In this document: in pieces, positions 14,342 through 34,798 of the stretch
Position numbering within the stretch: the stretch's first letter is position 1
Layout: each line of letters opens with the position of its first letter
NCBI GenBank assembly: GCA_905339295.1
Contig: CAJPFI010000038.1
Coordinates: 1-57,725 of the forward strand
Length of the DNA: 57,725 nt
Direction: 5' to 3'
Source: Burkholderiales bacterium
GTDB taxonomy: Bacteria; Pseudomonadota; Gammaproteobacteria; Burkholderiales; Casimicrobiaceae
Notes under the pieces: model-generated
What the model was told of the DNA's origin: nothing
Databases searched by the model: none
Seen by the model: only the letters and a program-made list of their open reading frames with translations
Program-made: the position numbers and the translations under genes

Positions 14342-15148
14342 GTGGAGCCGCTGCTCTTCGTCGTCTACGTCGCGCTGGGCGTGTTCGTGGGCTTCCTCGC
14401 CGGCCTCCTCGGCATCGGCGGAGGCATGACGATCGTGCCGGTGCTCGTCGCCGTGTTCACGCGCGAGGGTTTCGCGCTCGAGCACGTCCTGCCGCTCTCG
14501 ATCGGGACCGCCTCGGCGACGATCATGTTCACGGCGATCTCGTCGGCGCGCGCGCACCATGGCCACGGCGCCGTCGACTGGGGGATCGTGCGCGTGATGG
14601 CGCCGGGGCTGATCGTCGGATCGCTCGTGGGGCCGCAGATCGCGAGCGCGATGCCGGCGCGCGCGATGGCCGCGGCGTTCGCGGTGTTCACGTGGTTCAC
14701 AGCTTTTCGCCTGATCCGCAGGGCGGAGGCAAGGGCGACGCGCGAGCTGCCCGTGGGCGCGGGGCTGTTCGGCGTCGGCGCCGGCATCGGGGTGTTGTCC
14801 GGTGCGCTGGGCGTGGGCGGCGCCTTCCTGTCGGTGCCGTTCATGGTTCGCTGCCGCGTGCGGATGCACGCGGCGGTGGCGACCTCTGCGGCGCTGGGCA
14901 TCCCGATCGCGATCGCCGCGACGATCGGGTTCGTGTACGCGGGACTTCGGAAGAGCGGGCTGCCCGCGCACGCAATCGGCTACGTCTACCTGCCCGCGCT
15001 CGCCGGGATCGTCGTCTCGAGCATGATCGCCGCGCCCTTCGGTGCGCGCCTCGCGCATCGGTGGAGGGGCGCGACGCTCAGGCGCGCGTTCGCCGTGCTG
15101 ATGTCGGTCCTGGGCTGCTACATGCTTTGGCGCGCGCTGGGCGGGTGA
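14342..15148 (+). CDS. TauE/SafE family sulfite/anion exporter
   Basis: A 268-residue inner-membrane protein with about eight transmembrane segments in two homologous halves, each with a glycine-rich motif: GFLAGLLGIGGGMTIVP near residue 20 and GVLSGALGVGGAFLSVPF near residue 150. Both are TauE/SafE family signatures. Family members move sulfite, sulfoacetate and other organic anions. It starts with GTG and follows the EVE gene after 57 bases, and it converges on the end of the formate dehydrogenase operon. The substrate cannot be told; a link to the oxalate/formate locus is possible but not shown. Confidence 0.85.
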   Translation: MEPLLFVVYVALGVFVGFLAGLLGIGGGMTIVPVLVAVFTREGFALEHVLPLSIGTASATIMFTAISSARAHHGHGAVDWGIVRVMAPGLIVGSLVGPQIASAMPARAMAAAFAVFTWFTAFRLIRRAEARATRELPVGAGLFGVGAGIGVLSGALGVGGAFLSVPFMVRCRVRMHAAVATSAALGIPIAIAATIGFVYAGLRKSGLPAHAIGYVYLPALAGIVVSSMIAAPFGARLAHRWRGATLRRAFAVLMSVLGCYMLWRALGG

Positions 15149-15217: not shown

Positions 15218-18010
15218 TCAGCCGGCTCCGGCACGCTCGTAGCCGAACGTCCGGTGCGGCTCGCCGCCCGCGCTGACCCTCACCGCGCAGTACTTGAATT
15301 CGGGGATCTTGCCGTAGGGGTCGAGCGCCGGGTTGGTGAGCAGGTTCGCCGCAGCCTCGTGGTAGCAGAACGGCAGGAAGATCGCGCCGCGCGGCGTCCC
15401 GTCGTCGGCGCGCGCGAAGAACGTGACCTCGCCCCGCCGCGACGCGACGGTGACCGCGCCTCCCGGCGCGACGCCGAGCTGCGCGAGGTCGGCGGAATTG
15501 AGCGAAGCGACGGGCACGGGCTCGATCGCGTCGAGGACCTCGGAGCGGCGCGTCATGCTGCCGGTGTGCCAGTGCTCGAGTTGCCTGCCGGTGATCAGCA
15601 CCCACGGGTACTCGGCGTCAGGCTGCTCGTCGGCGCGGATCAGCCCCGCGGGCACGAGGCGCGCCCGGCCGCTCGCCGTCGGGAAGCGCTCGGTGAACAC
15701 GACGGCCTCGCCCGGATCGCCCTCCCGCTCGCACGGGTAGGTGACCGAGTGCTCGCGCTCGAGCCGGTCCCAGGTGATGCCCGCGATCGACGGCATGCCC
15801 TTGCGCATCTCGTCGAACACGTCGCGCGGGTGCGCGTAGCGCCAGTCGAGGCCCATCCGCCGGCCCATGTCGACGATGATCGCGAGGTCCTGCCGCGCCT
15901 CGCCCGGCGGCGCGAGCGCCTGCCGGCCCATCTGCACCGTGCGGTCGGTGTTCGTGAATGTCCCGGTCTTCTCCGGGAACGCGGAGGCAGGCAGGATCAC
16001 GTCGGCGAGGTAGCAGGTCTCGGTCGGGAAGATGTCCTGCACGACCAGCATCTCGAGCTTCGCGAGCGCCTCGCGCGCGTGTCCCGCGTCGGGGTCCGAC
16101 ATCGCCGGATTCTCGCCCATGATGTACATGCCGCGGATCTCTCCGGCGTGCACGGCGTCCATGATCTCGACCACGGTGAGGCCGGGCTTCGCGTCGAGCG
16201 TCGCGCCCCACAGCTTCTCGAACAGCGCGCGCGCGGCGGCATCGTCGACGCGCTGGTAGTCCGGGAACACCATCGGGATCAGGCCCGCGTCGGAGGCGCC
16301 CTGCACGTTGTTCTGCCCGCGCAGCGGGTGCAATCCGGAGCCCGGCTTGCCGATCTGCCCGGTGAGCATCGCCAGCGCGATCAGGCAGCGCGCGTTGTCG
16401 GTGCCGTGGATGTGCTGCGAGATGCCCATCCCCCACAGGATCATCGATCCGCGCGAGGTCGCGAACGCGCGCGCCACCTCGCGGATCGTCCCGGCCGGGA
16501 TGCCGCACACGCCGGCCATCGCCTCGGGGCTGAACGCGGCGACGTTTCTCGCGAGCTCGTCGTAGTTGCTGGTGCGCTCCGCGACGAACGCACGGTCGAC
16601 GAGCCCCTCCTCGACGATCGTGTGCATCATCGCGTTCAGCAGCGCGACGTCGGTGTCCGGCCTGAACTGCAGGTAGCGCCACGCGTGCCGCGCGAGCTCG
16701 GAACGGCGCGGATCGGCGAGGACGAGCCGCGTTCCCCGCCTGACCGCGTTCTTGATCCACGTGGCCGCGACCGGATGGTTGACGACGGGATTCGCGCCGA
16801 TCAGCAGCACGACGTCGGCCGCGAGCACGTCCATCACGGGGTTCGACACCGCGCCCGAACCGATGCCCTCGAGCAGCGCCGCGACGCTCGACGCGTGGCA
16901 CAGCCGCGTGCAGTGGTCGACATTGTTGGTGCCGAAGCCGGTGCGCACGAGCTTCTGGAACAGGTACGCCTCCTCGTTGCTGCCCTTCGCGGAGCCGAAG
17001 CCGGCGAGCGCGCGGGGTCCGCGGGTGTCGCGGATCCGCCGGAGCGTGCCGCTCGCGATGGCCATCGCCTCGTCCCACGTCGCCTCGCGGAACGCGGCGA
17101 GCAGGTCGGCGCGGTCGACGATGGCGTGCGCGTCCTTCGGCGCCCCGACGCGACGGACCAGGGGCTTCGTGAGGCGCTGCGGATGCGAGACGTAGTCGAA
17201 GCCGAAGCGGCCCTTGACGCACAGCCGCTCGCGGTTCGCCGGGCCGTCGCGGCCCTCGACGCGCACGATCGCGTTCTCGTGCACGTGGTAGGTGATCTGG
17301 CAGCCGACCCCGCAGTAGGGGCACACGGACGCGACGGTGCGGTCGACCGGCTTCAGGTAGGCGTCGCCGGCGGGCGCGAGCGCGCCGGTCGGGCATGCCT
17401 GCACGCACTCGCCGCACGCGACGCACGACGACGCCCCCATCGGGTCGTCCAGGTCGAAAACGATCGCCGAGTGCGAGCCGCGGTGCGCATAGCCGATCAC
17501 GTCGTTGACCTGCGCCTCGCGGCACGCGCGCACGCAGCGCGTGCACTGGATGCACGCGTCGAGGTTGACCGCCATCGCCGGATGCGAGAGGTCGGCCCGC
17601 GGCTGCTCGCGCGCGGGGAAGCGCGTCCTGCCGATGCCGAGCCTCCTGCGCCACAGTTCCAGCTCGGAGTCCGGCTTGTAGACGCGCTCGGGAACGTCGG
17701 AGGCGAGCAGCTCGACGATCATCCTCTGCGCGTGCATCGCCCGCGGGCTGTCGGTGGTCACTTCCATGCCGGACGCCGGCGTGCGGCAGCACGACGGCGC
17801 GAGCACGCGCTCGCCCTTGATCTCGACCATGCACGAGCGGCAGTTGCCGTCCGGCCGCAGCCCCGGCTTGTGGCACAGCCGCGGGATGGGCACGCCCAGC
17901 CGGTCGGCGACCGCGAGGATCGTCTCGCCCGGGGCCGCGCCGGCGTCCGCCCCGTTCAGCTTGAATGCGATCGTCGGCGCCGGGCGCGGGGTTTCGAGCG
18001 GAGCGTTCAT
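15218..18010 (-). CDS. fdsA: NAD-dependent formate dehydrogenase, alpha (molybdenum) subunit
   Basis: The catalytic subunit of the soluble, oxygen-tolerant formate dehydrogenase (formate + NAD to CO2 + NADH), 930 residues. In order: an N-terminal [2Fe-2S] domain (CHKPG, CRSC, CC near residues 45-80); a His/Cys cluster region; two [4Fe-4S] motifs (CIQCTRCVRAC and CVACGECVQACP, about 150-210); a further cluster CPYCGVGC; then the bis-MGD domain. The active-site residue is Cys, not selenocysteine, in HCTRLCHASS. It is the last gene of the oxalate operon and would oxidise the formate released from formyl-CoA. No fdsC (fdhD) or fdsD gene follows, so cofactor sulfuration must be supplied from elsewhere. 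Confidence 0.94.
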   Translation of the reverse strand: MNAPLETPRPAPTIAFKLNGADAGAAPGETILAVADRLGVPIPRLCHKPGLRPDGNCRSCMVEIKGERVLAPSCCRTPASGMEVTTDSPRAMHAQRMIVELLASDVPERVYKPDSELELWRRRLGIGRTRFPAREQPRADLSHPAMAVNLDACIQCTRCVRACREAQVNDVIGYAHRGSHSAIVFDLDDPMGASSCVACGECVQACPTGALAPAGDAYLKPVDRTVASVCPYCGVGCQITYHVHENAIVRVEGRDGPANRERLCVKGRFGFDYVSHPQRLTKPLVRRVGAPKDAHAIVDRADLLAAFREATWDEAMAIASGTLRRIRDTRGPRALAGFGSAKGSNEEAYLFQKLVRTGFGTNNVDHCTRLCHASSVAALLEGIGSGAVSNPVMDVLAADVVLLIGANPVVNHPVAATWIKNAVRRGTRLVLADPRRSELARHAWRYLQFRPDTDVALLNAMMHTIVEEGLVDRAFVAERTSNYDELARNVAAFSPEAMAGVCGIPAGTIREVARAFATSRGSMILWGMGISQHIHGTDNARCLIALAMLTGQIGKPGSGLHPLRGQNNVQGASDAGLIPMVFPDYQRVDDAAARALFEKLWGATLDAKPGLTVVEIMDAVHAGEIRGMYIMGENPAMSDPDAGHAREALAKLEMLVVQDIFPTETCYLADVILPASAFPEKTGTFTNTDRTVQMGRQALAPPGEARQDLAIIVDMGRRMGLDWRYAHPRDVFDEMRKGMPSIAGITWDRLEREHSVTYPCEREGDPGEAVVFTERFPTASGRARLVPAGLIRADEQPDAEYPWVLITGRQLEHWHTGSMTRRSEVLDAIEPVPVASLNSADLAQLGVAPGGAVTVASRRGEVTFFARADDGTPRGAIFLPFCYHEAAANLLTNPALDPYGKIPEFKYCAVRVSAGGEPHRTFGYERAGAG

Positions 18011-18115
18011 GACCGGACCGTCCTGATCGGCGCTCGCGGACGCGCCGATCGCGAGTCTCCCCGCGTCGGGGAGGCGGCGGGGCGGGAGCCGGGGGCTGGG
18101 GGCGCCACGGCGGCC

Positions 18116-19801
<1,686 letters not shown>

Positions 19802-19826
19802 CGCGGAGGGGCCGCTGCGTTCGGCC

Positions 19827-21368
19827 TCAAGGCTCGCCGGCTCTTGGCGACTCCGCCGCGAGCTCCGCCGCGCGCAGCCGTCCGCGCCACGCTCCCAGGC
19901 CGGCCGACACGAGCGGCCAGCAGAGCAGCACGAGCGCGAGTCCCATGATCGAGCCGACCAGGCCGTTCGACCAGAACACCGTCACGCTTCCGCCGGACAG
20001 CAGCATCGACTGACGGAACGCCGTCTCGGCCATGTCGCCGAGCACCAGCGCGAGCACGAGCGGCGCGAGCGGGTAGCGGAGCTTCTTGAAGAAGTAGCCG
20101 ACGATGCCGAAGACCACCATCATCACGACGTCGAACATGTTGTTGTGGACGGTGTAGGCGCCTATCGCGCAGATGACGACGATGACCGGCGCGATGATCG
20201 AGAACGGGATGCGGAGGATCGCCGCCCACCACGGGACCGTCGTGAGCACGATCAGCAGACCCACGATGTTGCCGAGGTACATGCTCGCGATCAGGCCCCA
20301 GACGAATTCCTTCTTCTCGACGAACAGCAGCGGACCCGGCTGCAGTCCCCAGATCAGCAGCCCGCCGAGCAGCACCGCCGCGGTCGGCGATCCGGGAATG
20401 CCCAGCGTCAGCATCGGCAGGAGCGCGCTGGTCCCCGCGGCGTGCGCCGCGGTCTCCGGCGCGACCACGCCTTCGATATTGCCCTTCCCGAAGGTGTCGC
20501 GGTCCTTCGACATCCGGCGCGCCATGCCGTAGCTCATGAACGACGCCGGCGTCGCGCCGCCGGGCGTGATGCCCATCCAGCAGCCGATCAGGCAGCTGCG
20601 CAGCGACGTCATCCAGAAGCGGGGAAGCTTCTTCCACGTTTCGAGCACCACCTTGAGGTTGATCTTGCCCTTCGCGCCCTTGAACGCGAGCCCTTCCTCC
20701 ATCGTGATCAGGATCTCGCCCAGTCCGAACAGCCCGATGACCGCGATCAGGAAGTCGAAGCCCTGCAGCAGCTGCATGTGGCCGAAGGTCATGCGCAGCT
20801 GGCCGGTCACGATGTCGAGGCCGACGGCCGCGAGCGCGAATCCGATCATCATCGACGCGATCGTCTTCGCCGCGGGCTCGCGGCTCATCCCGATGAAGCT
20901 GCAGAACGTCAGGAACTGGACCGCGAAGTACTCGGGGGGGCCGAACTTGAGCGCGAACCTCGCGACCAGCGGCGCGAGGAACGTGATGACCAGCACCGCG
21001 ATGAACGCACCCACGAACGACGACGTGAACGCCGCGGTCATCGCCTCGCCTGCGCGGCCCTGCTGGGCCATCGGGTAGCCGTCGAACGTCGTGGCCACCG
21101 ACCAGGGCTCGCCCGGTATGTTGAACAGGATCGACGTGATCGCCCCGCCGAACAGCGCCCCCCAGTAGATGCACGAAAGCATGATGATCGCCGAGGTCGG
21201 CGACATCGTGAACGTGAGCGGGAGCAGGATCGCGACGCCGTTGGCGCCGCCCAGGCCGGGCAGCACGCCGATCAGCACGCCGAGCAGGATGCCGACCAGC
21301 ATGAAGAGCAGGTTCTGCCAGGTCAGCGCGACCGCGAAGCCCTGCATCAGGTTGCCGATGTCCTCCAT
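19827..21368 (-). CDS. tctA: tripartite tricarboxylate transporter, large permease TctA
   Basis: The large membrane subunit (513 residues, about 11-12 transmembrane segments) of a TTT secondary carrier that works with a periplasmic binding protein. The family signatures GVLPGLGGANGVAILLPLTF near the N-terminus and GIPGSPTAAVLLGGLLIWGL around residue 330 are present. TTT systems take up citrate and other di- and tricarboxylates. Being inside the oxc-frc-fds operon suggests that the substrate is oxalate or a related acid; this is inference. It lies 117 bases after tctB and 25 bases before the fused fds gene. Confidence 0.93.
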   Translation of the reverse strand: MEDIGNLMQGFAVALTWQNLLFMLVGILLGVLIGVLPGLGGANGVAILLPLTFTMSPTSAIIMLSCIYWGALFGGAITSILFNIPGEPWSVATTFDGYPMAQQGRAGEAMTAAFTSSFVGAFIAVLVITFLAPLVARFALKFGPPEYFAVQFLTFCSFIGMSREPAAKTIASMMIGFALAAVGLDIVTGQLRMTFGHMQLLQGFDFLIAVIGLFGLGEILITMEEGLAFKGAKGKINLKVVLETWKKLPRFWMTSLRSCLIGCWMGITPGGATPASFMSYGMARRMSKDRDTFGKGNIEGVVAPETAAHAAGTSALLPMLTLGIPGSPTAAVLLGGLLIWGLQPGPLLFVEKKEFVWGLIASMYLGNIVGLLIVLTTVPWWAAILRIPFSIIAPVIVVICAIGAYTVHNNMFDVVMMVVFGIVGYFFKKLRYPLAPLVLALVLGDMAETAFRQSMLLSGGSVTVFWSNGLVGSIMGLALVLLCWPLVSAGLGAWRGRLRAAELAAESPRAGEP

Positions 21369-21485
21369 GGAGTGCCCTAGGAAAGCATGCCGCGGCCGGT
21401 CCGGGCCGCAGGATGGCGCGTCGCGCCGACGATCGTGCCGCCGCGACGCGGCGTCCTTCGCGCGGAGCGCGCGTCGTTCTCCATG

Positions 21486-22007
21486 TCAGTACCCGAGCAT
21501 GTTCTCGAGCGGGCCCTTCGGCAGAGGCACCAGGAACCAGACCTCGAACAGCAGGAACATCGCGACGGGTACGCACAGCGACACGCTGACGGTGAGCGGC
21601 CACCTGTAGCGGCCCTTCCAGACCATGAACGCGCCGATGAAGATCGCCGAGGCGACGTAGATGCCGATCAGCTTGATCGCCACGACGAACGCGATCGTGG
21701 GCAGCAGCATCTCCAGCACCGGCTTGAGCGCCGTCCATTCGACGAACACCGAGCTGGCGAGCCGCTTCCAGCGCACCAGCACGGCGCCGGCGATCCACGC
21801 GCCGGAGAGAAGGAGGCAGGCGCCCGTCAGGAACGGGAAGTAGCCGGACTCCGGGCCGTCGCTCGCCCACTTCGCGCCGATGCGGACGCTGTCGAAAACG
21901 ACGATCGCCCCGCCCAGGCAGATCAGCAGCGCGACGATGAGCTCGACCCATCGGGTCGAGAGGCCGCCGCGCGTGGCGGCGGCCCCTCCTTGCGCTTCCT
22001 GGTCCAT
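21486..22007 (-). CDS. tctB: tripartite tricarboxylate transporter, small permease TctB
   Basis: The small membrane subunit of the TTT carrier, 173 residues with four predicted transmembrane segments (about residues 20-42, 60-80, 98-122 and 135-165). The sequence RIGAKWASDGPESGYFPFLTG matches the conserved first loop of TctB proteins, and the C-terminal FEVWFLVPLPKGPLE is also typical. Its start lies only three bases after the tctC stop, so the two are surely cotranscribed. The function depends on TctA and TctC. Confidence 0.92.
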   Translation of the reverse strand: MDQEAQGGAAATRGGLSTRWVELIVALLICLGGAIVVFDSVRIGAKWASDGPESGYFPFLTGACLLLSGAWIAGAVLVRWKRLASSVFVEWTALKPVLEMLLPTIAFVVAIKLIGIYVASAIFIGAFMVWKGRYRWPLTVSVSLCVPVAMFLLFEVWFLVPLPKGPLENMLGY

Positions 22008-22010
22008 CGG

Positions 22011-23021
22011 CTACTTGGCCAGGAAACCGGCTTCCTGCATCAGCTCGCGGTGACGGTTCTCGGTCTTGGCGACCCAGTCGACGTACTCCCTGCCCGTCAT
22101 GAACGTCGTGTTGAACGCCGCGTCCTCGGTGTACTTCTTCCACTCGGGCAGCGCGCGCACCTTCTTGAACAGGTCGATGTAGAAGTCGACCTGCTCCTGG
22201 CTCACGCCCGACGCCATGAAGATCCCGCGCAGCATCACGTACTCGACGTCGAGTCCCGCGGACTTGCAGGTCGGGATGTCCTGCCAGGACATCGTCGCCG
22301 TGACCTTGGCCGGGTAGGGCATCGGCTGGCTGTCGAACACGCACAGCGGCCGCAGCGCCCCCGAGCGCCAGTGCGCGATCGCCTCGATCGGGTTGTTGAC
22401 CGTCGAGTCGACATGCTTGCCGACGAGCTGCACGGCCACGTCGCCGCCACCCTTGAACGGCACGTAGGTCATCTTCTTGCCGACGAATTTCTCGAGCGCG
22501 ACCGTGATGATCTGGTCCTCCTGCTTCGACCCGGTCCCCGCCATCTTGTACTGGCCGGGGTTGCCCGCCCTGAGCGCGTTGACGTAGTCCGCCGTGGTCT
22601 TGTAGGGCGACTCGGCGTTGACCCACAGCACGAACTCGTCGAGCGCGAGCATCGCGACCGGCGTCAGGTCCTTCCAGTTGAACGGCACGCCCGTCGCGAG
22701 CGGCGTCGTGAACAGGTTGGAGAGCGTGATGATGATCTTGTGCGGGTCGCCCCTGGCGCCCTTGACCTCGAGGAAGCCCTCGGCGCCGGCGCCGCCGGAC
22801 TTGTTGACGACGATCAGCGGCTGCTTCATCAGGTTGTGCTTCGCGACCATGCCTTGCACGAAGCGCGCCATCTGGTCTGCCCCGCCACCGGTTCCCGCTG
22901 GGACGACGAACTCGACAGGCTTGGTGGGTTCCCACGCCGCGTGGGCGGCCGGCTGCGCAGCGAACACGCCGACGGCGAGGGCGGCCGCGAGTGCGGCCCG
23001 GCGATTGGCATTGCGATCCAT
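22011..23021 (-). CDS. tctC: TTT substrate-binding protein (Bug/TctC family)
   Basis: A 336-residue periplasmic receptor with a Sec signal peptide ending near AAQPAAHAAW. Bug-family landmarks are present: PVEFVVPAGTGGGADQMAR in the first lobe, NKSGGAGAEGFLEVKG, and the second-lobe segment TYVPFKGGGDVAVQLVGKHVDSTVNNP. Bug proteins bind carboxylates through water-bridged contacts. The operon context suggests oxalate, but binding specificity cannot be read from the sequence. It is the first of the three transporter genes, 83 bases after the acyl-CoA synthetase gene. Confidence 0.93.
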   Translation of the reverse strand: MDRNANRRAALAAALAVGVFAAQPAAHAAWEPTKPVEFVVPAGTGGGADQMARFVQGMVAKHNLMKQPLIVVNKSGGAGAEGFLEVKGARGDPHKIIITLSNLFTTPLATGVPFNWKDLTPVAMLALDEFVLWVNAESPYKTTADYVNALRAGNPGQYKMAGTGSKQEDQIITVALEKFVGKKMTYVPFKGGGDVAVQLVGKHVDSTVNNPIEAIAHWRSGALRPLCVFDSQPMPYPAKVTATMSWQDIPTCKSAGLDVEYVMLRGIFMASGVSQEQVDFYIDLFKKVRALPEWKKYTEDAAFNTTFMTGREYVDWVAKTENRHRELMQEAGFLAK

Positions 23022-23104
23022 GACTCCTCCTGGGTGATCGGGCTATGGCCGCCCGCGCGGGCTCGTGACGGACCCGGACCGCGTCGTGCGGGTACGGCAG
23101 GAAC

Positions 23105-25276
23105 TTAACGCTTCGGACTCTCCCGGCGTGTACCGGTTCCGCCGGTCCGGATGAGACCCGCGCCGCGGGCCCACTTGTACTTCGCGCCCAGCACCATCAC
23201 CGGCATCTCCGTCGAGTACGGGTAGGCCGGGATGCCGTGGTCGAACAGGTACTCGGCGGCCTCCTCGACCTCCACGTCGCCCGCCAGCGACGCGACGACG
23301 GGCTTGCTGATGCCCTTCGCCCTGAACTCCTCGACCACCTCCGCGACCAGCCTCGCGAACACCATCGGCGGGGTGACGATCGTGTGCCAGTAGCCGAGGA
23401 TCAGCGAGTGGATGCGCGGATCCTCGAGCCCGAGCCGGATCGTGTTCTGGTAGGTCTTCGGCGGCTCGCCGCCGGTGATGTCGACCGGGTTGCCGGCCGC
23501 GCCGAACGGCGGGATGAACTTGCGGAACGCCGCGTCGAGGTCGGCGGGCATCGCCATCAATTTGAGGCCGTTGTCGACACAGGCGTCGGAAAGCAGCACA
23601 CCGGACCCGCCGGCGCCGGTGATGATCACGACGTTCTCGCCCGCGGGCGTCGGCAGAACGGGAATCGCGCGAGCGTACTCGAGCATCTCGCGCAGCGCCT
23701 TCGCGCGGATGACGCCGGACTGGCGCAGCACGTCGTCGTAGATCTTGTCGTTGCCGGCAAGGGCGCCGGTGTGCGAGCTCGCCGCCCGCGCGCCCATGCT
23801 GGTGCGGCCCGCCTTCAGCACGACGACCGGCTTCTTCTTCGACACGCGCTTCGCGACCTCGGCGAACGCGCGCCCGTCCTTCAGGTCCTCGCAGTGCTGC
23901 GCGATGATGTGCGTGTTCTCGTCCTGCTCGAAGAACGTCAGCAGGTCGTCCTCGTCGATGTCCGACTTGTTGCCCAGGCCGACGATCGCCGAGACGCCCA
24001 TCCTGGCGGAACGCGAGAAGCCGATGATGGCCATCCCGATGCCGCCCGACTGCGACGACAGCGCGGCGTGGCCCTTGACATCGTAGGCGGTGCAGAACGT
24101 CGCGCAGAGGTTCTTCCACGTGTAGTAGAAGCCGTAGATGTTGGGCCCCATCAGGCGCACGCCGTACTTGTGCCCGATCGCCTGGATCTCCTTCTGGCCC
24201 TCGACGTTGCCGGTCTCGGCGAAGCCGGACGGGATCAGAACCGCGCCGGGGATCTTCTTCTCGCCGCACTCGACCAGCGCCGCGGCGACGAACTTGGCGG
24301 GAATCGCGAACACCGCAACGTCGATCGTGCCGGGCACGTCCTTCACGCTCTTGTACGCCTTCATCCCCATGATCTCGCCGGCCGACGGGTTGATCGGGTA
24401 GATCTTCCCCTGGTAGCCGCCGTTGATCAGGTTCTTCATGACCGAGTTGCCGATCTTGCCGGTCTCGCCCGAGGCGCCGATGACCGCGACTGCTTCCGGC
24501 TTCATGATCCGGTTCATGTCGCGCACGATGTCCGCGTGCCTGGGACGGAAGCGCGCCGGCGGCGGATCCCAGTCGCACACGATGCGCACGTCCGCGGCGA
24601 CCGCGCCGGCCTTCGACGCGAACACCGGATTCAGGTCCATCTCGGCGATCTGGGGGAAGTCGGCGACGAGCTGGGACACGTTGCGGATCACCGTCGCGAG
24701 CGCGTTGCGGTTCACCGGGTCGGCCCCGCGCACGCCCTTCAGGATCTCGGCGGCGGCGATGCCGTCGAGCATCGACAGCGCGTCGTCCTTCGTCGCCGGC
24801 GCGAGCCGGAACGTCACGTCCTTCAGCACCTCGACCAGCACGCCGCCCAGGCCGAACGCGACCAGCTTGCCGAACGACGGATCGGTCACCGCGCCGATGA
24901 TCACTTCCTGCCCGCCGCCCACCATCTGCTGCACCTGGACGCCGTGCACGACCGCCTTGCGGTTGTACTTCCTCGCGTTGGCGAGGATGGTCGCGAAGCC
25001 CTTCTTCGCGTCGGCCGCGTTCTTCACGCCGACGATCACGCCGCCGGCCTCGGTCTTGTGCAGGATGTCCGGCGACACGACCTTGAGCACGACCGGGTAG
25101 CCCATCCTCGTCGCGAGCTTCGCGGCCTCGGCCGCGTTCTTCGCGACGCCTTCCTTCGGCACCGGGATGCCGTAGGCGTCGCAGACCAGCTTGCCCTCGG
25201 GCGCAGTCAGCGACGTCCGCCCGTCGGCCTTGACGGCGTCGAGGATCTTCCGCACTGCGGTCTTGTTGTTCGCCAT
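23105..25276 (-). CDS. NDP-forming acyl-CoA synthetase (acetate-CoA ligase type)
   Basis: A 723-residue single-chain synthetase of the succinyl-CoA-synthetase superfamily, interconverting an acyl-CoA plus ADP/Pi with acid, CoA and ATP. The ATP-grasp (beta-type) part comes first, about residues 20-235; the CoA-binding domain follows from about 260 (AVAVIGASGETGKIGNSV) and the ligase domains carry the phospho-histidine motif SSHTGALAGN (His502). It lies 29 bases after frc in the oxalate operon. Likely jobs, by inference, are making the first formyl- or oxalyl-CoA needed to prime Frc, or recovering ATP from formyl-CoA. The acid used is not knowable from the sequence. Confidence 0.88.
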   Translation of the reverse strand: MANNKTAVRKILDAVKADGRTSLTAPEGKLVCDAYGIPVPKEGVAKNAAEAAKLATRMGYPVVLKVVSPDILHKTEAGGVIVGVKNAADAKKGFATILANARKYNRKAVVHGVQVQQMVGGGQEVIIGAVTDPSFGKLVAFGLGGVLVEVLKDVTFRLAPATKDDALSMLDGIAAAEILKGVRGADPVNRNALATVIRNVSQLVADFPQIAEMDLNPVFASKAGAVAADVRIVCDWDPPPARFRPRHADIVRDMNRIMKPEAVAVIGASGETGKIGNSVMKNLINGGYQGKIYPINPSAGEIMGMKAYKSVKDVPGTIDVAVFAIPAKFVAAALVECGEKKIPGAVLIPSGFAETGNVEGQKEIQAIGHKYGVRLMGPNIYGFYYTWKNLCATFCTAYDVKGHAALSSQSGGIGMAIIGFSRSARMGVSAIVGLGNKSDIDEDDLLTFFEQDENTHIIAQHCEDLKDGRAFAEVAKRVSKKKPVVVLKAGRTSMGARAASSHTGALAGNDKIYDDVLRQSGVIRAKALREMLEYARAIPVLPTPAGENVVIITGAGGSGVLLSDACVDNGLKLMAMPADLDAAFRKFIPPFGAAGNPVDITGGEPPKTYQNTIRLGLEDPRIHSLILGYWHTIVTPPMVFARLVAEVVEEFRAKGISKPVVASLAGDVEVEEAAEYLFDHGIPAYPYSTEMPVMVLGAKYKWARGAGLIRTGGTGTRRESPKR

Positions 25277-25305
25277 GTCCGCCTCGTCGATCGGTCAGGG
25301 GGCCG

Positions 25306-26553
25306 TCAGATGACGCCCTCGTTGCGCAGCGCCGCGATCTCTTCGGTGCCGTAGCCCAGCTCCATCATCACCTCCTCGGTGTGCTCGCCCAGGAGCGGCG
25401 AGCGCTTCACCTCGGTGGGGCTGTCCGACATCTTGATCGGGTTGCCGACGCTCAGGTACTTGCCGCGCGTCGGGTGGTCGACCTCGACGACCGTGCCGGT
25501 CGCGCGAAGCGACGGCTCCTCGGCGATCTCCTTCATCGACAGGATCGGCCCGCACGGGATGTCGTGCTTGTTGAGGATGTCCATCGCCTCGAACTTGGTC
25601 TTGGTCTTGGTCCACTCCTCGATCTTGCCGAAGATCTCCATCAGGTGCGGCAGGCGCGCCTTGGGCGTCGCGTAGCGCGGGTCGGTCAGCCACTCGGGCC
25701 GCCCGATCACCTCGCAGATGTCCTTCCACACCGGCGCCTGCGTGATGAAGTAGATGTAGGCGTTGGGGTCGGTCTCCCACCCCTTGCACTTGAGGATCCA
25801 GCCCGGCTGGCCGCCGCCCGACGCGTTGCCGGCGCGCGGCACCGCGTCGCCGAACGTGCCGTTCGGGTACTGCGGGTATTCCTCCATCACGTGCGTGCGG
25901 TCGAGCCTCTGCTGGTCGCGCAGCTTGACGCGGCACAGGTTCAGCACGCCGTCCTGCATCGCGGCGAGCACCTTCTGGCCGCGGCCCGTCGTCTTGCGCT
26001 GGTAGAGCGCCGCGACGATGCCGAGCGCGAGGTGCAACCCGGTGCCCGAGTCGCCGATCTGCGCGCCGGTGACGAGCGGCGGGCCGTCGTCGAAGCCGGT
26101 CGTCGACGCCGAGCCGCCTGCGCACTGCGCGACGTTCTCGTAGACCTTGCAGTCCTCGTACGGCCCCGGCCCGAAGCCCTTGACCGACGCGACGATCATC
26201 GCGGGGTTGAGCTGCTGGATGCGCTCCCAGGTGAAGCCCATCCGGTCGAGCGCGCCGGGCGCGAAGTTCTCGACCAGCACGTCGCAGTGCTTCACCAGCG
26301 CCTCGATCACCGCCTTGCCCTTGGGATGCTTGGCGTCGATGGTGATCGAGCGCTTGTTGTGGTTCAGCATCGTGAAGTAGAGGCTGTCCACACCCGGGAT
26401 GTCGCGCAGCTGGCCGCGCGTGATGTCCCCTTCGCCCGCGCGCTCGATCTTGATGACGTCGGCGCCCATCCACGCCAGGAGCTGCGTGCATGTCGGCCCC
26501 GACTGCACGTGCGTGAAATCGAGAATGCGGACGCCGTCCAGTGCCTTACCCAT
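25306..26553 (-). CDS. frc: formyl-CoA:oxalate CoA-transferase Frc
   Basis: A class III CoA-transferase that moves CoA from formyl-CoA to oxalate, making oxalyl-CoA and formate. The 415-residue protein is collinear with the Oxalobacter formigenes enzyme as I recall it: [47 protein letters not shown], and the catalytic aspartate in QIGDSGTG (residue 168; Asp169 in O. formigenes). It also keeps the glycine loop [10 protein letters not shown] prefer the ATG at 26553, with GGGGGA upstream, over the adjacent in-frame GTG at 26556. It lies 147 bases after oxc, its partner enzyme. Confidence 0.95.
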
Positions 26554-26700
26554 CACGTTCCCCCATTCATCTCTACCGTCCCCTCGGGCACCGGCGCCCC
26601 GACGCCGAGTCCGCGGTGCGCAAGCCGCGTTGAGCGTCGTCGCGCCTACCGTCGCTCACGCGACGTCGCGTCGTCGACGACGCTCGAACGCGGCCGGCCG

Positions 26701-28503
26701 TCACGGTTTCTTCTTCGCGGCGGGATTGAGATTGGTGATGCGTCCGCTCTCGGTCCCCCCGCCCTCGTCGATGACCGCGTTGATCAGCGTCGGCCGCCTC
26801 GAGCGGATCGCCGCCTCCATCGCCGCACGCAGCTCCCCGGGCGTCTTCGCGTGCACGCCGACGCCGCCGAACGCCTCCATCAGCTTCTCGTAGCGCGCGT
26901 CCTTGACGAACACGAGCGGGGACGGATCCGGCCCGCCCGTCGGATTCTTCTCGTCGCCGCGGTACACGCCGTTGTTGTTCATGATCACGACGCACACCGG
27001 CAGGTCGTAGCGACAGATCGTCTCCGTCTCCATCCCCGAGAAGCCGAACGCGCTGTCGCCCTCGACCGCGATCACCTGCTGCCCCGTCACGACGGCGGCG
27101 GCCACGCAGTAGCCCATGCCGATGCCCATGATTCCCCAGGTGCCGACGTCGATCCGCTTGCGCGGCTTGTACATGTCGACGATCGAGCGCGTGAAGTCGA
27201 GCGCGTTGGCGCCCTCGTTGACGAGGATCGCGTCCGGGTTCGCCTTGACGATGTCGCGCACGACGTTGAGCGCGCTCTGGAAGCTCATCGGCGACGGGTC
27301 CTTCCCCAGCGTCTCGGCCATCTTCGCGACGTTCTTCGCCTTGCGCTCGGCGACGGCGTCGAGCCAGTCGGACGGCGGCTTCGGCCAGCCCGCGCCGATG
27401 CCGGCCAGCAGCGCCGTCACGCAGGAGCCGATGTCGCCGACCACCGGAGCGTCGATGCGCACGTTGCTGTCGGCCTCCTGCGGCGAGATGTCGACCTGCA
27501 CGAACTTCTGACCGCCCCAGGCCTTCGACGACGCGCCGCCCCAGGTCTTGCCCTTGCCGTGCGAAAGCAGCCAGTTCAGGCGCGCGCCGATCAGCATCAC
27601 GACGTCGGCTTCCGGCAGCACGAACGAGCGCGCGGCGGACGCGCACTGCTCGTGCGTGTCGGGCAGCAGGCCCTTGGCCATCGACATCGGCAGGTACGGG
27701 ATGCCGGTCGTCTCCACCAGCGCGCGGATGTCCGCGTCGGCCTGCGCGTAGGCCGCGCCCTTGCCGAGGATGACGAGCGGCTTCTTGGCCGTCCTGAGCA
27801 GGTCGAGCGCACGCTTGACGGCGTCGGCCGCGGGAATCTGCTTCGGCGCCGCGTCGACCACCTTGATCAGCGTCGCGGCGCCGGTCGCGGCGTCGATCGC
27901 CTGCGGGAACAGCCTGGCCGGCAGGTCGAGGTACACGCCGCCCGGGCGTCCGGAGACGGCCGCGCGGATCGCGCGCGCGACGCCGACGCCGATGTCCTCG
28001 GCGTGCAGCACGCGGAACGCCGCCTTGGCGAGCGGCTTCGCGATCGCGAGCTGGTCCATCTCCTCGTAGTCGCCCTGCTGCAGGTCGACGATCTCGCGCT
28101 CGGACGAGCCGCTGATCAGGATCATCGGGAAGCAGTTGACCGTTGCGTGCGCGAGCGCGGTGAGGCCGTTGAGGAAGCCGGGGGCGGACACCGTGAGGCA
28201 GATGCCCGGCTTCTGCGTCAGGAATCCGGCGATGGACGCGGCATACCCGGCACTCTGCTCGTGCCGGAAGGAGATCACGCGCATGCCCGCAGCCTGCAAC
28301 TTGCGCGTGAGGTCGGTGATCGGGATGCCGGGCAGGCCGAAGATCGTGTCGATGCCGTTCAGCTTGAGGGCCTCGATGACGAGCTGAAAGCCGTCGGTTT
28401 CCCTTGCATGGCGATCGATCGCGCCGCCGCCGGGGGACTTCGGCATGTCGTCGGCGGTGCTGGTCGCCGGCTTCGTGGCGGTCTTCAGCGCTTGGTCGTT
28501 CAT
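26701..28503 (-). CDS. oxc: oxalyl-CoA decarboxylase Oxc
   Basis: A thiamine-diphosphate enzyme that decarboxylates oxalyl-CoA to formyl-CoA and CO2, 600 residues. It shows the family order: N-terminal PYR domain with the catalytic glutamate in [14 protein letters not shown], a central domain, and the C-terminal PP domain with the ThDP/Mg motif [20 protein letters not shown] to MNNNGVYRG. The ATG at 28503 has a clean GGAGG seven bases upstream and gives an N-terminal extension of about 35 residues before the conserved part. It is the first gene of the operon, and the -35/-10 region with a candidate GntR operator lies about 370 bases upstream. Confidence 0.96.
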
Positions 28504-28866: not shown

Positions 28867-28893
28867 GGTATTTGATATATCAGGCGGCGTCAA
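28867..28893 (-). promoter_or_regulatory. oxc promoter with candidate GntR operator
   Basis: Read on the minus strand, TTGACG (28893-28888) is followed after 17 bases by a weak -10 candidate, TACCTT. The spacer contains GATATATCAAATACC (28881-28867), which matches the palindrome GGTATATAAGATACC in the promoter of the neighbouring GntR-family gene at 12 of 15 positions. AT-rich sequence stands out sharply in this 70% GC region. A repressor bound here would block RNA polymerase. This is a pattern-based inference. Confidence 0.6.
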
Positions 28894-28938: not shown

Positions 28939-28970
28939 GACATTCCCGCCGCCCGACGGCGGGCAATGTC
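28939..28970. terminator. hairpin at the lysR 3' end
   Basis: GACATT at 28939-28944 and AATGTC at 28965-28970 pair, and inside them CCGCC pairs with GGCGG, forming one long GC-rich hairpin that overlaps the lysR stop codon. No T-run follows on either strand, so it may be a weak or Rho-assisted terminator, or a stabilising 3' hairpin, separating lysR from the oxc operon. Confidence 0.5.
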
Positions 28971-29940
28971 ATCGCCCGCCAGGCGCCGCGGACGAGCGTG
29001 CGTCGAGTGTCCGGGCGGGCACTCCGGCGCGCATGTAGCCCTCGATCAGGCGAGCGCCTTCCTCGCGAAGGAAGTCCCTGAAGGCGGCGGCCACCGGAGG
29101 CAATCGCTTCGCGCGGCGGTGCACGACGTACCAGTGACGCATCGCCGGGAATCCCACGACGTCCAGCACCACCAGTCCCCCGCTGGCGAGCTCGAGGGCG
29201 ATTGCATGCGACGACAGGAACCCCAGGCCGAAGCCCGCGATGACCGCCTGCTTGATGGTCTCGTTGCTGCCGATCTCCATCGCGACGCGGACCGCGGAGA
29301 ATTGCGTCCCGAATGCCTCGCGCATCGAGTTCCATGTGTCGGACCCGCGCTCGCGGACGACGAACGGTTCCGCGAGGACGCGCGCGAACGGAATGCGCTT
29401 CGCCCACGCCAACGGGTGCGAGGGCGCGGCGACGATCACGTAGGCGTGCGGCGCGAACGCCTCGTGGATCGTGTCGTCGCCGGCAGGCGGCCGGACCATC
29501 ACGGCGAGATCGGACAGGTTGTCGTCGAGCCGCTTGAGGAGGCCCTCGCGGTTCTGGACGGCGAGGTCGATCGTCACGCCAGGATGGCGGCGCGTGAACT
29601 CCGCGAGCAGCCGGGGAAAGAAGTAGTCGCCGGCGCTGATGACTGCCACCGACAGCGTGCCGCCGCCGACGCCCTTGAGCCGCGCCATCGCCTCCTCGGC
29701 GTCGCGAAACTCCTGCAGGATCGCCCGGCTGCGCTCGACCAGCTCGCGTCCGGCCGCCGTCAGGTAGACCCTGCGCCCGAGGCGCTCGAACAGCGGAAGG
29801 CCGGCGTGTCCCTCGAGTTCGCGGATCTGCGCGGAGATCGCCGGCTGCGAAAGGTGCAACTCCTCCGCCGCGCGGGAGAAGCTCAGGTGCCGGGCGACCG
29901 TCTGGAACACCTTGAGCTGGCGGATCGTGGCGTTCTTCAT
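28969..29940 (-). CDS. LysR-family transcriptional regulator
   Basis: A 323-residue LTTR of the CbbR-like type: an N-terminal winged helix-turn-helix (MKNATIRQLKVFQTVARHLSFSRAAEELHLSQPAISAQIRELE) and a C-terminal inducer-binding domain starting near residue 95 (GTLSVAVISAGDYFFPRLLAEF). It lies upstream of oxc on the same strand and divergent from a small hypothetical gene. Its own upstream region has three regularly spaced GGTTAT half-sites, probably its autoregulatory operator. An activator role for the oxalate genes is likely from position but not shown; the GntR gene 1.7 kb away is the other candidate regulator. Confidence 0.9.
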   Translation of the reverse strand: MKNATIRQLKVFQTVARHLSFSRAAEELHLSQPAISAQIRELEGHAGLPLFERLGRRVYLTAAGRELVERSRAILQEFRDAEEAMARLKGVGGGTLSVAVISAGDYFFPRLLAEFTRRHPGVTIDLAVQNREGLLKRLDDNLSDLAVMVRPPAGDDTIHEAFAPHAYVIVAAPSHPLAWAKRIPFARVLAEPFVVRERGSDTWNSMREAFGTQFSAVRVAMEIGSNETIKQAVIAGFGLGFLSSHAIALELASGGLVVLDVVGFPAMRHWYVVHRRAKRLPPVAAAFRDFLREEGARLIEGYMRAGVPARTLDARSSAAPGGR

Positions 29941-30360: not shown

Positions 30361-30529
30361 CCCGCGGCCCCACGCGCCTCGGGCGAGGGCCCCGACTCCT
30401 CCGGGAGCGCGACCCGCAAGTCGCGGTGCGACGCCGGCCATCGTGCCGGTTTCCGGACGGGAGATGCGCGGCGCACGGATCGCGCCCGGAGGGGCGAGGC
30501 GCGAGGCACTCGTTCCGCCGTTCGGTTTT

Positions 30530-30544
30530 GGTATATAAGATACC
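30530..30544 (+). promoter_or_regulatory. candidate autoregulatory operator of the GntR gene
   Basis: The imperfect palindrome GGTATATAAGATACC (GGTAT...ATACC arms) overlaps a likely -10 box (TATAAG) about 90 bases upstream of the GntR-family start. The same pattern recurs in the oxc promoter. FadR/VanR-type GntR regulators bind short AT-rich palindromes of this kind and often repress their own gene. A second small palindrome, GGGTACC, follows directly. Confidence 0.6.
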
Positions 30545-30632
30545 GGGTACCGGGGATGGGCTCGGCGCCTCCGGCGCCATCCAGGACGGGCGCGCGAAGC
30601 GCCCTGCGACCCCGAAGGAACCCGAGCGATCC

Positions 30633-31343
30633 ATGTCCACCGGCACGGCCGCCGCCGCGAAGATCCCGCTGGCCCTCCAGCCGATCAACGCGAATGCGAG
30701 CCTGCGCGACCAGGCCTACGCCGCGCTCAAGCAGGCGATCGTCGAGGCCGACATCTACTCGCACTCGGGCGAGGTGCGCCTCGACGAGCGCCAGCTGTCG
30801 CTCTCGCTCGGCGTGTCGCGCACGCCGATCCGCGAGGCGATGACGCTGCTCGAGCAGGAAGGGCTGCTGCGCACGGTTCCGCGCCGCGGCATCTTCATCG
30901 TGCGCAAGACCAGGCGCCAGATCGTCGAGATGATCGAGATGTGGGCGGCCATCGAGAGCATGGCTGCGCGACTCGCGACGGCGAACGCGTCCGACGAGGA
31001 CATCGCCGGCCTGCGCAAGATGTTCGACGAGTTCCGCAACGCGGCGCCGGCCGAGCACATCAGCGAGTACTCGGACGCCAACATCGCGTTCCACCAGGCG
31101 ATCATCGCGCTGTCCGGGTCGCAACTGATGGGGCAGATGCTCGAGAACCTGTTCATCCACGTCCGGGCGATCCGGCGGATGACGATCTCGCAGGCCGACC
31201 GCGCATCGCGCTCGATCGTCGACCACATGCGCATCATCGAGGCGCTCGAGACGCGCGATACCGAGCTCGCCGAGCGCCTCGTGCGCCAGCACTCGCTCGA
31301 CCTCGCGGCCTACGTCGAGAAGCACTGCGACTTCCTGGCGTAG
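30633..31343 (+). CDS. GntR/FadR-family (FCD) transcriptional regulator
   Basis: A 236-residue regulator with an N-terminal winged helix (about residues 20-85; LDERQLSLSLGVSRTPIREAMTLLEQEGLL and RRGIFIVRKT) and an all-helical FCD effector domain (about 95-230) with the expected metal/ligand histidines (NIAFHQAII, VDHMRIIEAL, RQHSLDLAAY). FCD regulators sense small organic acids. Its promoter contains a palindrome that recurs in the oxc promoter, so it is a candidate repressor of the oxalate operon as well as of itself. The ATG at 30633 follows AAGGAA at a loose distance. The frame is open upstream without similarity. Confidence 0.9.
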   Translation: MSTGTAAAAKIPLALQPINANASLRDQAYAALKQAIVEADIYSHSGEVRLDERQLSLSLGVSRTPIREAMTLLEQEGLLRTVPRRGIFIVRKTRRQIVEMIEMWAAIESMAARLATANASDEDIAGLRKMFDEFRNAAPAEHISEYSDANIAFHQAIIALSGSQLMGQMLENLFIHVRAIRRMTISQADRASRSIVDHMRIIEALETRDTELAERLVRQHSLDLAAYVEKHCDFLA

Positions 31344-33179: not shown

Positions 33180-34679
33180 CTAGCCTGACGGGCTCCCAAA
33201 CTTCGCGCGCAACTCCGCCTTGATCACCTTGCCCATCGCGTTGCGCGGCAGGTCGACGACGAAGAGCACGCGCTTCGGCACCTTGAAGCCCGCGATCTCG
33301 CCCTTGAGCGCGCCGATGACGCCGCTCTCGGTCAGCGCGTGCCCGGGCTTCGCGACGACGACCGCGGTGACCGCCTCGCCGAAGTCGGCGTGCGGCACGC
33401 CGATGACCGCGCTCTCGGCGACGCCTTCCATGGCGTCGATGCGCTCCTCGATCTCCTTCGGATAGACGTTGAGGCCCCCGGTGATGATCAGGTCCTTCGC
33501 GCGGCCGACGATCCGGAGGTAGCCCTCGCGCGTCCACTCGCCCATGTCCCCCGTCCGGAACCAGCCGTCGGCGGTGAACTCCTCGCGCGTCCTGTCCGGC
33601 AGGTTCCAGTAGCCCTTCAGTACGTTGGGCCCCTTGACCTGGATCGCGCCGATCGTGCCGGGCACGCACGGCGAGCCGTCGTCGCCGACGATGCGCACCG
33701 AGACGCCCGGCAGCGGGGGCCCGACCGTGCCGCCGAGGCGCGGGCCGTCGAGCGGGTTCGACGTGATCATGCCCGTCTCGGTCATGCCGTAGCGTTCGAG
33801 GATGCGCTGGCCGGCGCGTTCCTCGAACTCGCGGAACGTCTCGGGCAGGAGCGGCGCGGAACCGGAGACGAACAGGCGCACGCCCTGCGCATGCTCGCGC
33901 CCGAACGAAGGCTCCGCGAGCAGGCGCGTGTAGAACGTCGGCACGCCCATCATGACGCTCGCCTTCGGCAGGAGCGCCATCACCTCGTGCGCGTCGAACT
34001 TCGGCAGCCACAGCATGCGGCTGCCCGACAGGAGCACGCAGTGGATCGCGACGAACAGGCCGTGCACGTGGAACACGGGGAGCGCGTGCAGCAGCACGTC
34101 GCCGCGCGTGAATCCCCACGCCTCGACGAGAGCGAGCGCGTTCGACGCGAGGTTGCGATGCGTCAGCATCGCACCCTTCGAACGGCCGGTCGTGCCCGAC
34201 GTGTAGAGGATCGCGGCGAGATCGTCGGGCGCCCGCGCCACCGTGTCGAACCGCTCGGGCTTTCCGTCCGCGCGGTCGATGAGTTCGCCGCCGCCCGCGT
34301 CGAGCGTGAGCACGGTCGCGTCGCGCGCGGTCGCCGCGACGACGCCCAGTCGCTCGCTCCCGCAGACGATCACGCGCGGACGCGCGTCGCCGAAGAAGTA
34401 GTCGAGCTCCGCGCGCTGGTAGCCGGTGTTGAGCGGCAGGTAGACGAGCCCCGCGCGGAGCACCGCGAGGTAGAGCGGCAGCACTGTCCAGTGCTTCTCG
34501 GCCTGCACCGCGATGCGGTCGCCCGGCCGGCATCCGGCGTCGACCAGCACGTGCGCGATGCGTGCGGAGAGCGCGGCCAGCTCGCCGTAGGTGACGACCG
34601 GACCCCCGGGGACGACGAGACAGGGCGCAGCCGCGTCCGCGACGTGCTGCTCGAACAGCGTGCAGAGATTGGCGTCCAT
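33180..34679 (-). CDS. matB: malonyl-CoA synthetase (MatB-like AMP-forming ligase)
   Basis: A 499-residue member of the ANL superfamily, closest in pattern to MatB, which makes malonyl-CoA from malonate, ATP and CoA through an acyl-AMP. It has the AMP-binding P-loop LYTSGTTGRSKGA near residue 165, the ERYGMTETGM motif near residue 295, the GYWNLPDRT and GWFRTGDMGEW segments, and the C-terminal catalytic lysine in RNAMGKVIK. MatB-like enzymes can also use methylmalonate. It is divergent from the malonate decarboxylase fusion gene, with a 119-base shared promoter region, which supports a malonate substrate. Confidence 0.85.
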   Translation of the reverse strand: MDANLCTLFEQHVADAAAPCLVVPGGPVVTYGELAALSARIAHVLVDAGCRPGDRIAVQAEKHWTVLPLYLAVLRAGLVYLPLNTGYQRAELDYFFGDARPRVIVCGSERLGVVAATARDATVLTLDAGGGELIDRADGKPERFDTVARAPDDLAAILYTSGTTGRSKGAMLTHRNLASNALALVEAWGFTRGDVLLHALPVFHVHGLFVAIHCVLLSGSRMLWLPKFDAHEVMALLPKASVMMGVPTFYTRLLAEPSFGREHAQGVRLFVSGSAPLLPETFREFEERAGQRILERYGMTETGMITSNPLDGPRLGGTVGPPLPGVSVRIVGDDGSPCVPGTIGAIQVKGPNVLKGYWNLPDRTREEFTADGWFRTGDMGEWTREGYLRIVGRAKDLIITGGLNVYPKEIEERIDAMEGVAESAVIGVPHADFGEAVTAVVVAKPGHALTESGVIGALKGEIAGFKVPKRVLFVVDLPRNAMGKVIKAELRAKFGSPSG

Positions 34680-34798
34680 GTCGGTGGCGGACGGGAGGGG
34701 GGCGTGCGTGTAATCTTGCGGGGCGTTCGGCCGGCCTCCGCTGCGCGAGGCGCGGCCCGGACGAACGGCGACCCCAGACTATACGACAGCGCGCGACC

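Follow-up and report, generated by a model that had tools for sequence, protein, structure and literature searches.

How does oxalate enter a bacterium that encodes both enzymes of oxalate breakdown and no OxlT antiporter over the cut-off of its family model? The question is raised by a contig of 57,725 nucleotides from a Burkholderiales bacterium of the Casimicrobiaceae (CAJPFI010000038.1), the whole of which is called the window here; it is contig C38 of a source genome of 4.03 Mb and 98% completeness. On its minus strand, from 28503 to 15218, lie oxc, frc, a gene for an acyl-coenzyme A (CoA) ligase forming a nucleoside diphosphate (NDP), tctC, tctB, tctA and the genes of the beta and alpha subunits of a formate dehydrogenase (FDH). 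The original prediction, made from the letters alone, had read these genes as one operon covering the oxalate pathway from uptake to NADH, with a tripartite tricarboxylate transporter (TTT) in place of OxlT. Judged by family models and genome comparison, the run is very probably an oxalate-utilisation operon that imports oxalate via the TTT carrier, splits it by means of Frc and Oxc, and oxidises the formate. Oxalate is a large soil carbon pool made by plants and fungi, and oxalate-eating bacteria drive the oxalate–carbonate pathway.

The eight-gene run

The strand, order and span predicted for the eight genes are borne out by coordinates and family models, and so are the family assignments, apart from the Fds label of the dehydrogenase discussed below. 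Oxc (26701..28503, oxalyl-CoA decarboxylase) exceeds two curated models (NF006721, 978 bits, cut-off 557; TIGR03254, 956 bits, cut-off 739), starts at MNDQALK and has 7ayg as its best match in the Protein Data Bank (PDB), at 886 bits. It is the single oxc over cut-off in the source genome. Frc (25306..26553, formyl-CoA:oxalate CoA-transferase) reaches 736 bits with TIGR03253 (cut-off 504) and matches YfdW (1pt5) over its full length, at 624 bits for residues 2–413. The carrier genes match the TTT family (TctABC, Bug proteins) in their C-B-A order and in the Pfam family of each of the three subunits, namely tctC for the solute-binding protein of the predicted oxalate carrier (22011..23021; PF03401, 98 bits, cut-off 27), tctB for the small membrane subunit (21486..22007; PF07331, 64 bits, cut-off 29) and tctA for the large one (19827..21368; PF01970, 514 bits, cut-off 29), all on the minus strand like oxc and frc. 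A crude hydropathy scan gave 11 hydrophobic segments for TctA and 4 for TctB, to be compared with the 12 and 4 transmembrane segments that characterise TTT carriers.

From oxc to FDH alpha the intergenic gaps, taken from the coordinates, are 147, 29, 83, 3, 117, 25 and 105 bases, in agreement with the predicted range of 3–147, and they hold no terminator-like site on the minus strand. Over both strands there are four such sites against 4.3 expected by chance, and the two on the minus strand fall inside tctA. A predicted operator, the palindrome TGATATATCA, stands at 28873..28882, 370 bases before the oxc start. A single operator in the window is compatible with one regulated transcript without proving it, and a transcript running from oxc to the alpha gene (fdsA in the original prediction) is no more than consistent with strand, gaps and operator.

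Gene order was surveyed in 100 oxc loci from 100 genomes, 70 of them with 6 kb or more of flanking sequence on each side and 30 with flanks under 6 kb (numbers with L and G are our own for loci and genomes; L001–L044, with short flanks or paralogues, stand outside the locus counts). Judged by Oxc, metagenome bins from Burkholderiales and other Betaproteobacteria make up most of the nearest relatives. The order of the window, through fdsGB into fdsA, recurs in at least 3 of the 100 loci (L192, L193 and L213), which represent three species of one genus, the window's; the count is a minimum, as many of the fetched stretches break off before that point. The shared order in these three loci is more than a chance arrangement. 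The survey of gene order, proposed together with the original prediction, finds the linkage of TTT and oxc widespread, and at the loci compared it saw the exact order of the window in this one genus.

In the mechanism that we propose, TctC would bind periplasmic oxalate and TctA/TctB would carry it into the cell; TTT carriers are cation-coupled. Frc would shift CoA from formyl-CoA to oxalate, and Oxc would turn oxalyl-CoA into formyl-CoA and CO2, each turn freeing formate, in line with the established chemistry of both families. Oxidation of formate to CO2 with formation of NADH, established for its family, would fall to the FDH1-type enzyme. The NDP-forming ligase might prime the Frc cycle with the first acyl-CoA, or draw ATP from formyl-CoA, and a GntR regulator encoded at 30426-31343 would govern the run through the palindrome upstream of oxc.

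A TctC clade linked to oxalate activation

A link between carrier and oxalate was first sought through TctC. A profile (A1) from 40 oxc-linked TctC proteins, the window's own among the 40 rows, scores the window TctC at 634 bits versus 121 bits for the best paralogue in the same genome. Across 399 genomes of the order, oxc was found in 77 and the clade TctC in 76 (74 genomes at 530 bits or more, plus partial matches at contig ends in G113 and G378; two matches each in G411 and G450 were counted once). Both were present in 57 genomes, TctC only in 19, oxc only in 20 and neither in 303, which corresponds to an odds ratio of 45 with kinship ignored.

Eleven of the 19 TctC-only genomes carry an AAE3-type oxalate-CoA ligase on the same contig, adjoining tctCBA or one gene off; a ligase of this type occurs in 10 of the 303 oxc-less genomes without clade TctC. 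In five others (G092, G098, G109, G152 and G190) frc exceeds its cut-off. The remaining three (G183, G225 and G265) are 84–85% complete, and neither ligase nor frc was found in them; G225 has panE beside its TTT (L259), and the TTT of G265 follows FDH and fhs at the end of a contig (L281). By best solved match the TTT-linked AMP-forming ligase is an oxalate-CoA ligase of the AAE3/Pcs60 type: the protein at L265:12353-13879 matches 5ie0, an oxalate-CoA ligase that we take to be Arabidopsis AAE3, at 441 bits; all four sequences below 1e-70 carry the name oxalate-CoA ligase or oxalyl-CoA synthetase, and the other ten TTT-linked ligases are 65–76% identical to it.

Twenty loci were fetched, from 18 of the 19 TctC-only genomes and from G137 and G415, where oxc lies about 40 kb away. 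A PanE-like reductase is encoded at 10 of the 20, and at L251 and L263 the genes form a compact run on one strand, ligase-tctC-tctB-tctA-panE. The model match of the PanE-like protein reads 2-dehydropantoate 2-reductase; its label as oxalyl-CoA reductase is our assumption, taken from Methylorubrum PanE2, a PanE-type enzyme that reportedly reduces oxalyl-CoA to glyoxylate. Such an activity would make the ligase-tctCBA-panE loci a second route for oxalate. No panE match came up in the oxc stretch of M. bullatum (L292).

A TctC tree, calculated by a quick method without bootstraps and with warnings on long paralogue branches, places all oxc-, ligase- and frc-linked rows in one clade of 65 rows (support of 97 in the Shimodaira–Hasegawa-like approximate likelihood-ratio test, SH-aLRT), comprising 41 oxc-linked, 11 ligase-linked, 5 frc-linked and 8 other rows. 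The paralogues of the window's genome fall outside; they are represented by 23 rows for 30 other TctC genes, of which two pairs are identical, leaving 21 distinct. Ligase-linked rows are scattered among oxc-linked ones, with at least three changes on the starred branches. According to this tree, the enzymes beside the carrier were replaced, but its association with oxalate genes was kept. The 60 oxc loci with a TTT show three arrangements: in 40 the carrier shares the strand of oxc and lies upstream of it, in 13 it shares the strand and lies downstream, and in 7 it is encoded on the other strand. The linkage to oxc therefore survived rearrangement. The TctC clade follows oxalate activation across Betaproteobacteria, whether by Frc/Oxc or by an AAE3-type ligase with a PanE-like reductase.

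Several further observations concern the clade and its surroundings. The nearest solved TctC is remote from that of the window (129 bits). An acidic pair, E168-D169, aligns where, as far as the accessible part of the TphC description goes, threonine and serine of TphC contact the ligand; it is kept as an idea only because the alignment there is weak. A sister TctC group of 12 genomes, most at 419–507 bits to the clade model, shares this pair and lacks A48, N102 and Q167. At its 13 fetched loci (L268–L280) the probes used detected no oxc or ligase nearby, and 8 of the 13 hold CoA-transferase-III-like genes with 27–36% identity to frc. In G137 and G415 (L253 and L254; genomes of about 2 Mb) oxc-frc-frc lies about 40 kb away from the clade tctCBA, which has no probed oxalate gene beside it. 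Three genomes without oxc encode, at the position otherwise taken by oxc and flanked by tctCBA and frc, an enzyme of the thiamine diphosphate (ThDP) type (L250:3339-5033, L255:3148-4842 and L258:3496-5163), with 25–26% identity to Oxc; the one from L250, the only one scanned, is closest to acetolactate synthase models and below their cut-off. Metagenome bins labelled Bordetella parapertussis (L087, L092 and L093) carry an oxalate locus with convergent tctABC; our guess is that the labels are wrong.

TTT carrier versus OxlT

The OxlT model TIGR04259 reached at best 62.8 bits over the source genome, far below its cut-off of 335. For the locus counts, OxlT was called at 35% identity or more and 150 bits or more to one of two proteins of the major facilitator superfamily (MFS); five MFS proteins scanned from a second set of 80 loci are TIGR04259 antiporters at 548–656 bits. 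Among the 70 well-flanked oxc loci, 44 have TTT only, 9 OxlT only, 1 both and 16 neither; over all 100 loci the numbers are 58, 13, 2 and 27, respectively. The second set, which overlaps the first in genomes, has 35 loci with 6 kb flanks, and these divide into 27 with TTT only, 5 with OxlT only, none with both and 3 with neither. On a single FastTree of Oxc, the fewest changes between TTT and OxlT amount to eight. Ligase-panE loci without TTT, covering four of ten such genomes, hold OxlT once (L298, 65% identity) and neither carrier three times. In both the oxc and the ligase setting, the latter represented by one locus, OxlT is found at loci that lack TTT.

On these comparisons, import of oxalate by the TTT carrier in place of OxlT, as originally proposed, is well supported as a prediction. 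The carrier is probably a major route of oxalate uptake in Betaproteobacteria and, given its broad distribution, may be the way in which many oxalate-eating bacteria obtain their substrate.

Weighing the evidence and alternative readings

A number of findings weigh against import of oxalate by this carrier. Three of 180 annotated loci combine TTT and OxlT (L065, L152 and L218), and 16 of the 70 well-flanked loci hold neither carrier. The mutual exclusion of the two carriers does not reach significance in a test that takes account of kinship (six independent pairs, sign test, median p 0.25). The TTT genes of the Azospirillum and Skermanella records do not adjoin oxc, and in the loci checked no operator was found before tctC where the TTT stands apart from oxc. 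The idea that a cell with its own FDH prefers TTT, since no formate would be exported for OxlT, is not supported: FDH is equally frequent with either carrier (24 of 44 well-flanked loci with TTT only, 5 of 9 with OxlT only, 0 of 16 with neither and 0 of 1 with both). Finally, the clade TTT of G098 has fhs and FDH genes around it and is on a different contig from the frc of that genome; that of G183 lies beside serine-cycle-like genes in a genome where no oxc, frc or ligase was found.

One alternative concerns the ligase rather than the carrier. It takes acs (23105..25276, minus strand), a one-chain NDP-forming acyl-CoA ligase with PF13549, PF13607 and PF19045, to be an ATP-dependent oxalyl-CoA or formyl-CoA synthetase able to replace Frc, which would make the pathway partly independent of CoA transfer. 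Directly before oxc, L215 (6533-10479) and L221 (6879-10841) encode an ADP-forming ligase pair resembling SucC and SucD, and no frc was found within these stretches, the whole genomes not having been searched for it. The acs gene also occurs in the oxc-frc regions of Skermanella rosea (76% identity, in an oxc-frc run), Cupriavidus campinensis (80%) and Paracoccus alcaliphilus (84%, for a copy cut by the stretch end). Against this, the window holds a full-length frc, acs reached no cut-off among the NCBIfam models, and only 9 of the 70 well-flanked order- and family-wide oxc loci carry it. The nearest PDB entry of acs is the ADP-forming 4-hydroxybutyrate-CoA ligase 8wzu (500 bits). We regard replacement of Frc as unlikely; the ligase is the weakest part of the proposed pathway, and priming of the Frc cycle and recovery of ATP from formyl-CoA are its two compatible roles, put forward as weak suggestions. 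Elsewhere, the SucCD-like pair of L215 and L221 may take the place of Frc as an ATP-linked maker of oxalyl-CoA.

A second alternative leaves the enzymes as they are and gives the carrier another small acid (formate, glyoxylate, malonate or an oxalate precursor), oxalate entering by another permease. The settings in G098 and G183 would also fit formate or glyoxylate. Formate-tetrahydrofolate ligase (FTHFS) and FDH are frequent at the well-flanked oxc loci (24 and 29 of 70, respectively). In the window itself, malonate-type genes lie at 33180-36064, a few kb upstream of the oxalate run; they comprise a malonyl-CoA synthase over its cut-off and a fused gene resembling malonate decarboxylase beta/gamma, below cut-offs. 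On the other hand, at the 11 TTT loci linked to the ligase the probes detected no FDH, FTHFS or OxlT, except for a 34% FDH-alpha-like match in L263; glyoxylate has no use at Frc/Oxc loci, and oxalate is the substrate common to Frc/Oxc and ligase loci. The presence of OxlT where TTT is absent likewise points to oxalate. Another acid is thus an improbable cargo, and import of oxalate is the preferred reading. That tctCBA adjoins oxalate genes merely through the abundance of its family, with 31 TctC genes in the source genome, is very unlikely and was rejected in view of the separate clade and its score, the co-occurrence with oxc, and the linkage kept through three arrangements.

Formate dehydrogenase

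The last two genes of the run were predicted to encode a fused FdsG-FdsB and an FdsA. Fusion and assignment as formate dehydrogenase stand, whereas the Fds type does not: both subunits are of the FDH1 type. The beta subunit (18116..19801, minus strand) joins NuoE-like and NuoF-like parts (PF01257, PF01512 and PF10589) and matches chain B of 7e5z at 729 bits over residues 11–557. The alpha subunit (15218..18010, minus strand) reaches 743 bits with TIGR01591 (cut-off 666) and scores 1303 bits with 7vw6_A versus 604 bits with 6tg9, presumably the Rhodobacter Fds type. The FdsG model NF004638 gave 47.8 bits, below its cut-off of 198. An enzyme with separate FdsG, FdsB and FdsA is ruled out by the fused NuoE/NuoF-like chain, the failure of the FdsG model and the 6tg9 score. 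By sequence class, the window dehydrogenase is of the FDH1 type, an alpha with a fused beta subunit in near full-length match to 7e5z/7vw6, a tungsten enzyme which we take to be FDH1 of Methylorubrum extorquens. Two subunits and a fused beta are common to both; unlike that enzyme, the window FDH is encoded within an oxalate operon.

In the 80-locus set, a formate-tetrahydrofolate ligase cluster occurs at 19 loci and an Fmt-like formyltransferase cluster at 28, one member of each having been scanned. Such additions typify many oxc-TTT loci of another layout (e.g. L060:3017-4684 and L081:13204-14133), and their presence indicates assimilation of oxalate-derived formate there.

Relation to known systems

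The Oxalobacter type of oxalate catabolism, with Frc, Oxc and OxlT, has the same two catabolic enzymes as the window, where both exceed curated cut-offs. It differs in that the window genome holds no OxlT over cut-off and has a binding-protein-dependent TTT in the operon; moreover, formate is probably oxidised inside the cell rather than exported. The oxc-frc-ligase-FDH run on pSR-1 of Skermanella rosea resembles the window in its acs and FDH1-type genes, and an oxc-FDH run of Azospirillum brasilense has enzymes like those of the window, the FDH1-type genes of both runs matching at 61–63%. In these genera, unlike in the window, the clade TTT is unlinked and lies beside TerC, CBS and GntR genes (S. 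mucosa and another A. brasilense strain); the Skermanella run also includes SucCD-like genes, unlike the window.

The accessible portion of a TTT review lists citrate, aspartate, glutamate, nicotinate, sulfolactate, terephthalate and adipate as substrates, and the word oxalate is absent from its main text (PMC5812351). A 'complete oxalotrophy operon' has been announced for Cupriavidus oxalaticus Ox1 (PMC9476978). It is likewise an operon for oxalate degradation; unlike here, Frc, Oxc, FDH and OxlT are named in general terms, with no gene list and no TTT (PMC9476978). The available part of the C. metallidurans genome paper counts oxalate among the acids that Bug proteins might bind (PMC2864759). 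In the portions accessible, oxalate and TTT are mentioned in unrelated places in PMC10838667 and PMC8230837, and the readable text of PMC2448597 holds a TTT reference with no link to oxalate; a co-mention of oxalate and 'tcta' in the accessible text of PMC6901664 was discarded as a primer sequence, not TctA. In the searched literature, among the papers listed and with most subscription papers outside reach, the link between TTT and oxalate does not go beyond that one speculation; no paper there brings together oxalate, TTT and formyl-CoA, and none GntR with oxc and frc. The original statement that the combination was not known as described holds within this literature. As a peculiarity of the window it has to be given up, since the TTT-oxc link is common in Betaproteobacteria.

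The system is best viewed as a widespread oxalate operon whose carrier, from a known family, probably has a substrate new to that family. If the TTT clade is indeed an oxalate importer, a specific uptake gene becomes available in many oxalotrophs, to be tested and used as a marker, and oxalate becomes the smallest dicarboxylate of the family; we know of no smaller one for it. A broader, joint claim would be that the clade is the main unrecognised oxalate importer of Betaproteobacteria and some Azospirillaceae, serves two unrelated routes, has been exchanged with OxlT several times, belongs in the window lineage to a GntR regulon at TGATATATCA, and works alongside a ligase that makes or spends formyl-CoA or oxalyl-CoA, a step without an assigned gene. 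Taken whole, this claim is tentative and somewhat doubtful.

Regulation and neighbouring genes

A GntR regulator of the FCD type (30426..31343, plus strand; PF00392 and PF07729) is the predicted binder of the operator and probably controls the run via the palindrome upstream of oxc, as suggested by the distribution of both. In the window, TGATATATCA has no other match with up to one mismatch, and 5 of 100 shuffles gave at least one match. With up to one mismatch, TTGATATATCAA occurs in the 4.03 Mb genome at the oxc-upstream site only, and with two mismatches at three other places. In 3.96 Mb of fetched sequence, TGATATATCA has 20 exact matches, 19 of them before oxc, frc or panE; with L049/L224, L051/L192 and L053/L219 each being the same genome fetched twice, 17 sites are distinct and 16 of these precede one of the three genes. 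Thirteen further palindromes composed of the same letters have between 0 and 2 matches each in this sequence. The relaxed form TGRTATAYCA yields 45 matches, 23 before oxc, 9 before frc, 4 before panE, 2 before oxlT, 1 before a tctC outside the clade (L272) and 6 at no probed gene.

Over the 100 oxc loci, a GntR with at least 45% identity to that of the window and an operator, strict or relaxed, are both present at 17 and both absent at 81, with one locus discordant each way. The 17 loci are not independent because 14 of them belong to the family of the window. The window GntR is 59% and 54% identical to oxc-adjacent GntR proteins of Skermanella rosea and A. brasilense, and 60% and 45% identical to those adjacent to tctCBA in another A. 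brasilense strain and S. mucosa, respectively. The operator was not found in the S. rosea and A. brasilense oxc stretches or the A. brasilense tctCBA stretch that carry these GntR homologues. In the Azospirillum, Skermanella and Paracoccus records, the best sites ahead of tctC, oxc, frc, panE and the ligase gene have 2–5 mismatches; the same search took in the eleven ligase loci together with L253 and L254, and left out L296–L299. As an application, the GntR operator could give an oxalate reporter.

Other lineages may regulate their oxalate genes differently from the GntR type. An open reading frame cluster lies beside oxc in 58 of the 80 loci (e.g. L091:8996-9622), and the one member scanned is CRP-like. 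In the window, a LysR regulator gene (28969..29940, minus strand; PF00126 and PF03466) lies just upstream of oxc, between it and the GntR gene; its product is CbbR-like, with 252 bits to NF045990 below the cut-off of 450, and a LysR gene stands upstream of oxc in L192, L193 and L224 as well. At the 3' end of the run, a convergent TauE gene occupies 14342-15148 on the plus strand.

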